A DNA stretch of 64,000 nucleotides from Sphaerisporangium album. Lineage in GTDB: Bacteria > Actinomycetota > Actinomycetes > Streptosporangiales > Streptosporangiaceae. The notes beneath the pieces were generated by a model. That model saw only the letters and a program-made list of their open reading frames with translations. It was not told where the DNA came from and made no database searches. The stretch's first letter is position 1; each line of letters opens with the position of its first letter. Positions 38,441-42,706 of this stretch are shown piece by piece. A program made the position numbers and the translations under genes. Where the stretch lies: positions 62,001 to 126,000 of the forward strand of contig NZ_QOIL01000007.1 of assembly GCF_003323745.1 (NCBI RefSeq), read 5' to 3'.

Positions 38441-38628
38441 CCACGTTGCGTCAAGCACGCGCCTGTTACGTTCGGAACACGCGAAGCCCTGGCACGCGCC
38501 GATCCGCCCACGCGCTCGCCGCCGCGCGGGGTGCGAAGTACGTCACCCAGCCGCTACGGGCGGGAAACCCCGGGGTAACGGGCCGGGGCTGTCATGAGAG
38601 GGACTCATCGGGTCAGACGGTGAGGCGC
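38441..38628. promoter_or_regulatory. Divergent spacer between lacI copy 2 and the guanidine riboswitch
   Basis: 188 bases that must hold the promoter of the guanidine operon. No clear -10/-35 pair and no gene were identified. Confidence 0.4.
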
Positions 38629-38718
38629 ACCTAGGGTTCCGCTCTCGTGACGAGGGGCTGGTCCGAGAGGTGCAGGCGGCCTAGGCCGCTCCACGGCGGG
38701 ACAAAAACCCGGGAGACA
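38629..38718 (+). ncRNA. Guanidine-I riboswitch (ykkC class)
   Basis: The conserved blocks of the class occur in order: CTAGGGTTCCG at 38631, CTGGTCCGAGAGG at 38658, and CCACGGCGGGACAAAAACCCGGGAGA ending near 38716, with variable stems between. It lies 50 bases upstream of the ureohydrolase gene. This aptamer senses guanidinium and turns on guanidine metabolism and transport. The following leader can form a small GCCTC/GAGGC hairpin upstream of the ribosome site, a possible expression platform. Confidence 0.92.
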
Positions 38719-38765
38719 GTCATGTCGGCTGCCTCCTGAGTGAGGCGTTCTCGAAAGGGACTGCC

Positions 38766-39956
38766 GTGGGCCATCTCCACGACAACTACGGACCCGAGGC
38801 CCGCTACGCCGTCGAGCGCGAGGCGGAGCTTCCGCTCACCATGCACCGGCGCGAGATCGAGCGCGGGCTGGAGTACGGCCTTCAGGGCGCGGACTCGATC
38901 GTGGACCGGACGATTCCGACGTTCTCGCGCGGCGAGCTGCCGCACTTCGCCGGGATCAACACGTTCCTGAAGGCGCCGTACCTGGAGGACGTGCGCCGCT
39001 GCGGCGAGTACGACGTGGCGGTGCTGGGCGCGCCGTTCGACGGGGGCACGACGTACCGCTCGGGGACCCGGTTCGGGCCGCAGGGCATCCGCAAGATCTC
39101 GGCGCTGTACGGCCCGTACAGCTTCGAGCTGGGCGTGGATCTGCGCGAGTCGATCACGATCGCCGACCTCGGGGACATCTTCACGATCCCGGCGAACATC
39201 GAGAAGACGTTCGACCAGATCAGCAAGGCGGTGTCGCACGTCTACGCGAGCGGGGCGTTCCCCGTGGTGCTGGGGGGCGACCATTCGATCGGGTATCCGA
39301 CGGTCCGCGGCATCGCCGAGCATGTTTCCGGAAATGTCTGAATCATCCACTTCGACCGGCACGTCGACACCCAGGAGACCGACCTCGACGAGCGCATGCA
39401 CACCACGCCGTGGTTCCACGCGACCGACATCCCCAACGTGCCGCCGAAGAACCTCGTGCAGATCGGCATCGGCGGCTGGCAGGCGCCCAGACCCGGCGTG
39501 AAGGTCGGCCGGGAGCGCGGGACGACCATCATGACCGTCACCGACTGCGTCGAGATGGGCATCGAGGCCGCCGCCGAGCGCGCCCTGGAGGTCGCCTGGG
39601 ACGGCGCCGAGGCCGTGTGGCTGTCGTTCGACGTCGACTGCCTGGACGCCGCGTTCGTCCCCGGCACCGGCTGGCCCGAGCCCGGCGGGTTCCTCCCCCG
39701 CGAGGTGCTCAAGTTCATCCAGCTCATCGCCGACGCGCGGCCGCTCGCCGGGATCGAGGTGGTCGAGTGCGCCCCGCCGTACGACAACGCCGAGATCACC
39801 GCGCTCATCGCCACCCGCGTCATCTGCGACACCCTCGGGTGCCTGGTCCGCGCCGGCCACCTCCCCAAGCCGCCCGGCGCGCGCCCCGCGCGAGGCGGCT
39901 CCCACGACCAGCCCGGCGACACCGCGCCGGACACGCACGAGAGGGGAGCCTCGTGA
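38766..39956 (+). pseudogene. gdmH: Guanidine hydrolase-type ureohydrolase (GdmH-like) interrupted by one in-frame TGA
   Basis: The whole 396-codon frame is open except for TGA at 39339-39341 (codon 192). The first part has GAPFDGGTTYRSGTRFGPQGIR and the GGDHS metal motif; the second resumes at once as IIHFDRHVDTQETD, then SFDVDCLDAAF and the C-terminal ECAPPYDN. Relatives carry Gly at the stop position, so one G-to-T change (GGA to TGA) explains it. Metal ligands are needed from both halves, so the truncated 191-residue product should be inactive unless there is readthrough or the base is a sequencing error. The riboswitch upstream and importer downstream argue for guanidine hydrolysis rather than agmatine. 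GTG start with AAAGGGA upstream. Confidence 0.85.
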
Positions 39957-40957
39957 TGCGCAGGCGCCTCGTCCAGCCCGCCGCCTCAGCCGTCCTCGCC
40001 GTCCTCGCCCTGCTCACGACGTCCTGTGCCGCCGGGAAGGACGCCGCGCCGTCCGCCTCGGGCGGCGGGTCGAAGATCACTCTGGGGTTCAGCGCCTGGC
40101 CCGGCTGGTTCCCCTGGCAGGTGGCGCAGGAGAAGGGCCTGTTCGCGAAGAACGGCGTCCAGGTCGAGCTGAAGTACTTCGACAACTACACCGACAGCCT
40201 CAACGCCCTGGCCACCGGGAACATCGACGCCAACAGCCAGACGCTCAACGACACCCTCGCCTCGGCGGCCGGAGGCGCCAAGGAGACCGTCGTCCTGGTC
40301 AACGACAACTCGACCGGCAACGACCAGATCATCGCCCGCGACGGCGTGAAGACCCTGGCCGACCTCAAGGGTAGGACCGTGGCCGCCGAGCAAGGCACCG
40401 TCGACCACTACCTGCTGCTGCTCGCCCTGCGGAAGGCGGGCCTGACCGAGCGTGACGTGAAGTTCCAGCCGCTGCCGACCGACGCCGCGGCCGCCGCGTT
40501 CGTCGCGGGGCAGGTGGACGCGGTCGGCGTCTTCGCCCCGTTCACCACCACCGCGCTCAAGCGGCCGGGCAGCACGGCGATCAGCAGCTCCGCCGACTTC
40601 CCCGGCGCGATCCCCGACCACCTGGTCGTCACCAGGGACCTGCTCGACCGGGACGCCGAGAGCGTGCAGGCGCTGGTGAACACCTGGTTCGACACCCTGG
40701 CCTGGATCTCCGCCAACCGGGACGAGGCCCTGGCGATCATGGCGAAGCGGGCGGGGGTGGGCGTCGCGGACTACGAGACCTACGACAAGGGGACGTCGAT
40801 CTTCACGCTGGAGCAGAACCGGGCGGCCTTCGCCTCCGACCTGCCCGCCCGCGCCAAGCAGATCGCCGACTTCCTGGTCGCGGGCAAGCTGGTGGACGCG
40901 GCCCCGTCCCTGGACGGGCTGCTCGACGCGCGGTTCGTCCAGGCGGTGCAGCCGTGA
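39956..40957 (+). CDS. ABC transporter substrate-binding lipoprotein (NMT1/TauA/SsuA type), probably guanidine
   Basis: 333 residues. Signal peptide with lipobox LTTSC (C24). The mature part ITLGFSAWPGWFPWQVAQEKGLFAKNGVQVELKYFDN is the nitrate/taurine/aliphatic-sulfonate binding-protein class. Its ATG shares one base with the ureohydrolase stop (TGATG), and a GGGGAG lies upstream. Position in a guanidine-I riboswitch operon suggests guanidine or a related guanidino compound as ligand. Confidence 0.88.
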   Translation: MRRRLVQPAASAVLAVLALLTTSCAAGKDAAPSASGGGSKITLGFSAWPGWFPWQVAQEKGLFAKNGVQVELKYFDNYTDSLNALATGNIDANSQTLNDTLASAAGGAKETVVLVNDNSTGNDQIIARDGVKTLADLKGRTVAAEQGTVDHYLLLLALRKAGLTERDVKFQPLPTDAAAAAFVAGQVDAVGVFAPFTTTALKRPGSTAISSSADFPGAIPDHLVVTRDLLDRDAESVQALVNTWFDTLAWISANRDEALAIMAKRAGVGVADYETYDKGTSIFTLEQNRAAFASDLPARAKQIADFLVAGKLVDAAPSLDGLLDARFVQAVQP

Positions 40958-41907
40958 CCCCGCACCCGGCCGCCACGCAGGCGGGCGAGACGGCCGACCA
41001 GAAGCCCGACCCGGTGACCGGCCCCGACCCCGGCCCCGTGACCGGCCCCGTGACCGGCCCCGTGGGCGACACCGCGACGGGGCCCGTGGACGGCGGGGCG
41101 ACCGGCCTGGCGCCCCCGCGCCCGGGGCGGCGGATCCGGCCGTTGAGCGGGTCCGTGACCGCCCGCACGGCCTGGACGCTGCGGGCCCTGTCGGTGCTCG
41201 GCCCGCTGGCCGCCTGGTGGGCGCTGAGCGCGAGCGGGGCGGTCAACCCCGCCTTCCTGCCCTCCCCCGCCGCCGTGTGGGACGCGGGCGTGCGGATGGC
41301 CGTCAGCGGCGACCTGTGGTCGGACCTGGCGGCGAGCCTCGGCCGTATCGGCCTGGGCTTCCTGCTCGCCGTGCTGATCTCGGTGCCGCTGGGGTTCACG
41401 ATGGGCGCCCTGCCCTGGGCGCAGGCCCTGCTGGAGCCGATCGTCGGCCTGCTGCGCTACCTGCCCGCCTCGGCGTTCATCCCGCTGCTGATCATCTGGC
41501 TCGGCATCGGCGAGGCGTCCAAGGTGGCGCTGCTCGTGCTCGGCGTGGTGTTCTTCAACACCCTCATGACCGCGGACGTCGTGCGGCGGGTCCCCCGGCG
41601 GCTGCTGGAGGTCTCGGCGACGCTCGGCGCGGGCCGCCCGCGGGTCGCCGCGCGCGTCGTCTTCCCGTACGCCCTGCCGGGCATCATCGACGCGATGCGG
41701 GTCAACGCGGCGGCCGCCTGGAACTTCGTGGTCGTGGCCGAGCTGATCGCGGCCACCTCGGGCCTCGGGTACCGCATCACCCGTGCCCAGCGGTTCCTGC
41801 AGACCGACCGCATCTTCGCGATCCTCGTGGTGATCGGCCTGATCGGGCTGACCATCGACGTGACGCTGCGGCTGCTGCGGGCCCGCGTCGGCAGGTGGTC
41901 CGCGTGA
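40954..41907 (+). CDS. ABC transporter permease (TauC/SsuC type) with repetitive N-terminal extension
   Basis: 317 residues from a GTG overlapping the previous stop (GTGA). About 80 N-terminal residues precede the first membrane helix and include short GPVTGP repeats encoded by tandem GTGACCGGCCCC units near 41040-41065. The remainder is a standard permease with about six helices and the LEVSATLGAGRPRVAARVVFPYALPGI coupling loop that contacts the ATPase. It forms the channel of the putative guanidine importer. Confidence 0.9.
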   Translation: MTPHPAATQAGETADQKPDPVTGPDPGPVTGPVTGPVGDTATGPVDGGATGLAPPRPGRRIRPLSGSVTARTAWTLRALSVLGPLAAWWALSASGAVNPAFLPSPAAVWDAGVRMAVSGDLWSDLAASLGRIGLGFLLAVLISVPLGFTMGALPWAQALLEPIVGLLRYLPASAFIPLLIIWLGIGEASKVALLVLGVVFFNTLMTADVVRRVPRRLLEVSATLGAGRPRVAARVVFPYALPGIIDAMRVNAAAAWNFVVVAELIAATSGLGYRITRAQRFLQTDRIFAILVVIGLIGLTIDVTLRLLRARVGRWSA

Positions 41908-41938: not shown

Positions 41939-42706
41939 GTGACGTTGCGCCTGGAAGGGCTCGGCAAGGAGTTCGTCCCCGGCCTGCCGGTGCTGGAAGG
42001 CATCGACCTGACCGTCGAGCCCGGCGGTTTCGTCTGCGTCGTGGGCGCCAGCGGCTCGGGCAAGTCCACGCTGCTCTCGCTGATCGCCGGGCTGACGCGG
42101 CCGACGGCCGGGCGGGTCCTGCTGGACGGCCAGGAGGTCACAGGTCCGGGTCCGGAGCGCGGGCTGGTGTTCCAGACCGCCTCGCTGTACCCGTGGCGGA
42201 CGGTGGCGGGGAACGTCGCCTTCGGGCTGGAGGCGATGGGCATGCCCCGGGCGCGCCGGGACGCGCGGGTGGCCGGGCTGCTGGACGAGGTGGGCCTGCG
42301 CCACCTGGCCGGAGCGCTGCCCGGACGCCTGTCGGGCGGCCAGCAGCAGCGCGTGGCGATCGCCCGGGCCCTCGCCTGCTCGCCGCGCGTGCTGCTGCTG
42401 GACGAGCCGTTCGGCGCGCTGGACGTGCAGACGAAGGAGGACATGCAGGTGTTCGTCCGCCAGGTGTGGCGGGACGTCGGCACAACCGTGATCATGGTGA
42501 CCCATGACGTCGAGGAAGCGGTCTTCCTGGGGCGGCGGGTCATCGTCCTGTCCTGCGATCCCGGGCGCGTGGCCCGCGACCTCGCCGTCGACCTCCCCGC
42601 CGACCGCACGCTCGCGGACAAGCGCTCGACGGCGTTCCTCGCGTTGCGCGTGGAGGTGGAAGATCTCGTCCGTGCCGAGCACCGCGCCCATCAGGCGCGC
42701 GTGTAG
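41939..42706 (+). CDS. ABC transporter ATP-binding protein (TauB/SsuB type)
   Basis: 255 residues. Walker A GASGSGKST, Q-loop VFQTASLYPW, signature LSGGQQQR, Walker B VLLLDEPFGALD and switch His in VTHDVEEA are intact. GTG start with GAGGAGG five bases upstream. Completes the importer after the binding protein and permease. Confidence 0.93.
   Translation: MTLRLEGLGKEFVPGLPVLEGIDLTVEPGGFVCVVGASGSGKSTLLSLIAGLTRPTAGRVLLDGQEVTGPGPERGLVFQTASLYPWRTVAGNVAFGLEAMGMPRARRDARVAGLLDEVGLRHLAGALPGRLSGGQQQRVAIARALACSPRVLLLDEPFGALDVQTKEDMQVFVRQVWRDVGTTVIMVTHDVEEAVFLGRRVIVLSCDPGRVARDLAVDLPADRTLADKRSTAFLALRVEVEDLVRAEHRAHQARV

Follow-up and report, generated by a model that had tools for sequence, protein, structure and literature searches.

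The gdmH gene in the window (that is, the whole stretch of 64,000 nucleotides of Sphaerisporangium album DNA analyzed here) is a broken allele, its frame of 396 codons being interrupted by a single in-frame TGA at codon 192. We consider it probable, at roughly 70%, that a very recent opal mutation private to this strain of a soil actinomycete has converted a riboswitch-controlled gdmH into a null allele. As the sequence stands, the frame stops ahead of five of the six metal ligands of the enzyme, and the frames of the adjacent importer are open. The underlying event is most likely an inactivating mutation of an ordinary kind, or else an error in base calling, rather than a new way of decoding UGA. 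The features of the locus are collected in table 1.

Table 1. Features of the gdmH locus and their positions in the window
Feature	Positions	Strand	Evidence or remark
Guanidine-I riboswitch aptamer	38620-38717	+	RF00442, 82.3 bits, E 3.8e-13; gathering score 63
Shine-Dalgarno-like GAAAGGGA upstream of the GTG start	38753-38760	+	Sequence; identical in the window and the three genus copies aligned with it
gdmH, whole frame	38766-39956	+	Start GTG 38766, natural stop TGA 39954-39956; 396 codons, single internal stop
gdmH, 5' part, 191 codons before the premature TGA	38766-39341	+	Retains one of six metal ligands (His173)
Internal in-frame TGA, codon 192	39339-39341	+	Gly in relatives (GGC in four close genus copies)
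gdmH, conserved 3' part after the premature TGA, ending in the natural TGA stop	39342-39956	+	Five of six metal ligands; PF00491 match; dN/dS 0.008 versus L004 over codons 193-372
Shine-Dalgarno-like site of the substrate-binding protein gene	39940-39948	+	Sequence
ABC importer substrate-binding protein	39956-40957	+	TIGR01728, 223.4 bits (cut-off 163.5); start overlaps gdmH stop (TGATG)
ABC importer permease	40954-41907	+	PF00528; frame open; matches the G005 and G007 copies without a stop
ABC importer ATPase	41939-42706	+	PF00005; frame open

Identity of the interrupted gene and its surroundings

An earlier note on this DNA had described a guanidine hydrolase frame that is open except for the TGA at codon 192, preceded by a guanidine riboswitch and followed by an intact importer, and each of these elements was recovered in our analysis. 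The reading frame itself bears out the first point, and a single match to the Arginase family (PF00491, residues 83-356) spans both sides of the TGA. When the product is compared with solved structures, the guanidinases come out nearer than other arginase-family enzymes: 9FEK scores 712 bits and 7ESR 570 bits, the next entry being proclavaminate amidinohydrolase at 187. The guanidinase of Nitrospira inopinata (9FEK) aligns across the TGA over residues 4-367 (E 1.4e-213), and that of Synechocystis (7ESR, 7OI1) over residues 11-369 (E 3.4e-170); both differ from the window in having Gly where the TGA lies.

The available text of the study of the N. inopinata enzyme (PMC11410670) prints the positions of the metal ligands and of the Thr, His, Trp and Glu residues proposed to act on guanidine. 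We mapped these onto the window through the 9FEK alignment, taking the number in the paper as the chain number minus 2, an offset at which all ten residues match in type. Carried over to the frame of the window in this way, His173 is the only metal ligand before the stop, whereas Asp197, His199, Asp201, Asp289 and Asp291 lie after it; likewise Thr96 precedes the stop and His212, Trp303 and Glu334 follow it, so that the whole set of six ligands and four catalytic residues is present only when the frame is read across the TGA. By its sequence, the gene is an actinobacterial nickel-dependent guanidine hydrolase. Since the stop removes five of the six metal ligands and three of the four proposed catalytic residues, neither fragment should work. 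The product of 191 residues should be incapable of binding the two metals, and restarting at Met211 (ATG, codon 211) would give a protein that lacks Asp197, His199 and Asp201.

The riboswitch claimed earlier is matched well over its gathering score, and no second RF00442 match turned up in the 9.3 Mb assembly, for which 150 of the 249 candidates from the first look were scored. The same element, again above the gathering score, lies beside gdmH in the four copies from the same genus (L003-L006). Between the riboswitch and the start codon, positions 38731-38746 read GCCTCCTGAGTGAGGC, a possible hairpin spotted by eye that may be part of the expression platform.

The importer is intact insofar as the frames of the substrate-binding protein, the permease and the ATPase are all open. 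The overlap of the gdmH stop with the start of the substrate-binding protein gene (TGATG or ATGA) recurs in L003, L004, L005, L006 and L007, and a GA(G/A)AGGGGA site stands ahead of that start in the window and in L003-L006, being absent from L007. In 25 of 31 loci, the window copy (L001) included, gdmH is followed by the genes of the substrate-binding protein and the permease, with the ATPase next in 19 of those 25, the other six ending before its position; the remaining 6 of the 31 loci have no importer match. The substrate-binding protein diverges far faster than gdmH among the genus copies, with dN/dS values of 0.24-0.30 versus 0.03-0.08.

Codon 192 in relatives and selection on the frame

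All 84 related loci with at least 55% identity encode Gly at codon 192 (45 GGC, 36 GGG and 3 GGA), as the earlier note had stated for relatives in general. These loci include three duplicate pairs (L003/L035, L006/L032 and L007/L059). One search confirmed 559 loci, of which the top 80 were used; the best named matches to the gene belong to Sphaerisporangium, Microbispora, Acrocarpospora and Herbidospora. The count passed over 11 loci on the minus strand, of which L005, L008, L009, L010 and L011 were read separately and all have Gly, while L014, L015, L020, L024, L028 and L031, which are agmatinase-like, were left out of the reading. Agmatinase-like loci show Gly, Ala or Ser at this codon. A family search over 341 genomes gave, among the matches listed and leaving out those at 43% identity or less, 66 GdmH-like loci for comparison: 64 have Gly, one has the codon deleted and one is the window itself. 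Thus none of the relatives compared, either the 84 loci at 55% identity or more or the 65 other family loci, carries a stop at codon 192. Eleven genomes of the genus were covered, the window's included; five hold a copy at 93% identity or more, and one more holds a relative at 57%. A plasmid search gave 649 records, of which 10 show 60-80% identity.

A split of the enzyme into two genes as the normal state, which the earlier note had named among the findings that would overturn its reading, was looked for in the 65 other family loci and not found: 64 have Gly at codon 192, and from codon 16 to codon 354 the best-matching stretch of each locus is free of stops (L259 and L261, which are broken in other ways, are counted among these). 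Nor is an internal stop common to relatives, as counts of one TGA had hinted, for these are the natural stops at codons 373-385 in L003-L007, and no early stop occurs in the other family loci.

The nature of the base change is less simple than had been proposed. A single substitution suffices only from a GGA ancestor, a codon found in 3 of the 84 relatives, whereas the nearest copies, the four close ones of the same genus (L003-L006), all have GGC; TGA is therefore two changes away unless the lineage went via GGA. This gap requires an extra step, either silent or from Gly to Cys, and counts against the null-allele reading.

The frame shows coding constraint up to very recent times. In comparison with the genus copies, dN/dS of gdmH is 0.031 (L004), 0.048 (L005), 0.053 (L003) and 0.075 (L006), and downstream of the stop, over codons 193-372, the differences from L004 amount to 34 synonymous and one nonsynonymous. 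At the 213 codons that are unanimous in the four genus copies, the changes private to the window are 19 synonymous ones and no nonsynonymous one, as counted from that unanimity without a fitted tree. Given the 137 synonymous and 502 nonsynonymous sites of these codons, a wholly neutral branch would have been expected to accumulate 69 nonsynonymous changes; finding none limits the neutral share of the branch to at most about 4%, a rough bound. Gln40 of the window is absent from the four genus copies, in which the codon varies. Changes of this kind imply that the lesion is very recent, an artefact, or tolerated, the same three options that the earlier note had left standing, and the missing decay fits all three equally; nothing in it supports readthrough specifically.

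Error, readthrough and recoding as alternatives

The strongest competitor of the recent null allele is an error in base calling or assembly, in which case codon 192 of the strain would truly encode Gly and its gdmH would be normal. We regard this as unlikely, yet as a serious candidate: the assembly is a draft of 9.3 Mb in 62 contigs, the stop is present in one genome only, and relaxed selection on gdmH is not seen. Against it, TGA lies two bases off the GGC of the genus, and a single wrong base would suffice only if the codon had previously become GGA. Among 15 codons that are GGC in all four genus copies, the window has GGC in 11, GGG in three and TGA in one, with no GGA. There is no homopolymer at the TGA site. 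Furthermore, long frames of relatives match 10.7 kb of the window (30 of 159 open reading frames), and within this part gdmH is the one gene whose frame looks broken. Thirteen matches in this check showed a stop or a change of frame, and by our reading of the coordinates and of the open frames, three of these are gdmH, seven are minus-strand matches facing genes of the plus strand and three run across stretches before the start of a gene. It is on account of the two-base difference and the intact appearance of other nearby genes that we rank the null allele above an error.

Functional readthrough, in which tRNA-Trp or another near-cognate tRNA would read the UGA and so yield full-length GdmH at a low level, appears considerably less probable than an error. 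Coding constraint does persist past the stop, and the base that follows UGA is A, a context favourable to readthrough in E. coli. The authors of PMC7918605 argue that readthrough is frequent where a conserved bacterial gene contains an in-frame stop. The same text describes such stops as widespread and short-lived, reportedly persisting over short evolutionary times; its cases resemble the present one in that a gene under apparent constraint has a single in-frame stop, and differ from it in that the stops retained there are common to orthologues of at least two species, whereas here the stop occurs in a single genome. The TGA is common to none of the relatives compared. All the GdmH relatives counted have Gly at the site, with Gly, Ala or Ser in agmatinase-like loci, and a Trp at residue 192 would probably harm the enzyme, the metal motif HFDRHVD beginning just three residues on, at His195. 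The RNA 3' of the stop is also structurally unremarkable, with no stimulatory structure detected (z 0.96; 166 of 200 shuffles fold equally well or better).

The tRNA complement likewise argues against readthrough by a dedicated suppressor. All 58 tRNA matches in the genome were read, and none of them has a UCA anticodon. The tRNA-Trp has a five-pair anticodon stem, G24 and A9 (in our own numbering), and thus is without the suppressor changes discussed in the available text of PMC13092985, from which the criteria for an altered tRNA were taken. A suppressor tRNA of either sort, the candidate we looked for in the genome, was consequently rejected. A more elaborate form of the idea, namely that a usefully read UGA acts as a translational throttle, the guanidine-induced operon making much importer and little hydrolase, is in our estimation even more doubtful than readthrough itself.

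Selenocysteine insertion, or reassignment of UGA in the organism, can practically be set aside: the stop is indeed UGA and both of its flanks are conserved, but the models of SelB and tRNA-Sec stay below cut-off and UGA terminates neighbouring genes. In the assembly, which is 99.4% complete, the best match to SelB (TIGR00475) is a frame of 401 residues with 202.9 bits, under the cut-off of 242.25, which we read by its size as probably EF-Tu. For tRNA-Sec (RF01852), with 150 of 2010 first-look candidates scored, the five matches are all below cut-off and correspond to the tRNAs Ser(CGA), Ser(TGA), Gly(TCC), Thr(TGT) and Gly(CCC). Of six genes checked for their natural stop, five end in TGA (gdmH, substrate-binding protein, permease, OsmC and GlgX) and the ATPase in TAG. 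Taken with the normal tRNA-Trp and the lack of a UCA tRNA, these results make selenocysteine or suppressor decoding very unlikely. The earlier note had reached the same conclusion on selenocysteine from the position being Gly and not Cys; the conclusion holds, and the decoding machinery provides a better argument for it than the residue.

Consequences of a null allele and other broken copies

If gdmH is a fresh null allele, active guanidine hydrolase would no longer be made. Synthesis of the importer may drop too, because translation would end well before the natural gdmH stop, which overlaps the start of the substrate-binding protein gene. On induction, the strain would thus be capable of guanidine uptake but not of hydrolysis by the GdmH route. 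At most, the locus represents a naturally occurring allele of gdmH that is null or leaky, the guanidine operon being intact in other respects. Studied beside a sibling strain whose gene is unbroken, it could reveal the cellular effect of importing guanidine without hydrolyzing it. It also carries a caution, in that a lone in-frame stop from a single draft assembly is poor ground for calling recoding.

A second intact gdmH in the genome was considered and rejected, the sole other match being 40% identical over 77-365, with Ser at codon 192 as in agmatinase-type loci. For the alternative route of the urea carboxylase type, searched in the genome with one model (TIGR02712), nothing scored over cut-off, and we read the matches below it as partial and biotin-carboxylase-like. 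The genome retains urease alpha and one transporter of the SMR family. A literature search combining Sphaerisporangium and guanidine returned nothing on the topic, as judged by titles and the openings of abstracts.

Three other gdmH-like copies are broken, L259 and L261 from the same family and L011 from another family of the order. They weakly suggest that the gene is useful under some conditions only. All three come from draft genomes, in which errors are possible too, and at about 51-62% identity to the gdmH of the window they belong to a more distant group, which limits the support that they lend to a null allele. L261 (G294:C442:24000-26000, at about 571-1478) has a deletion of approximately codons 106-193 together with a frame change, and L259 (G295:C578:25700-27500) has a frame change near codon 270. 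In L011, where gdmH lies on the minus strand, the frame changes near codon 130, and this locus also has a match to the guanidine-III riboswitch (RF01763, 41.5 bits) at 841-900 of the plus strand, opposite to that of gdmH.
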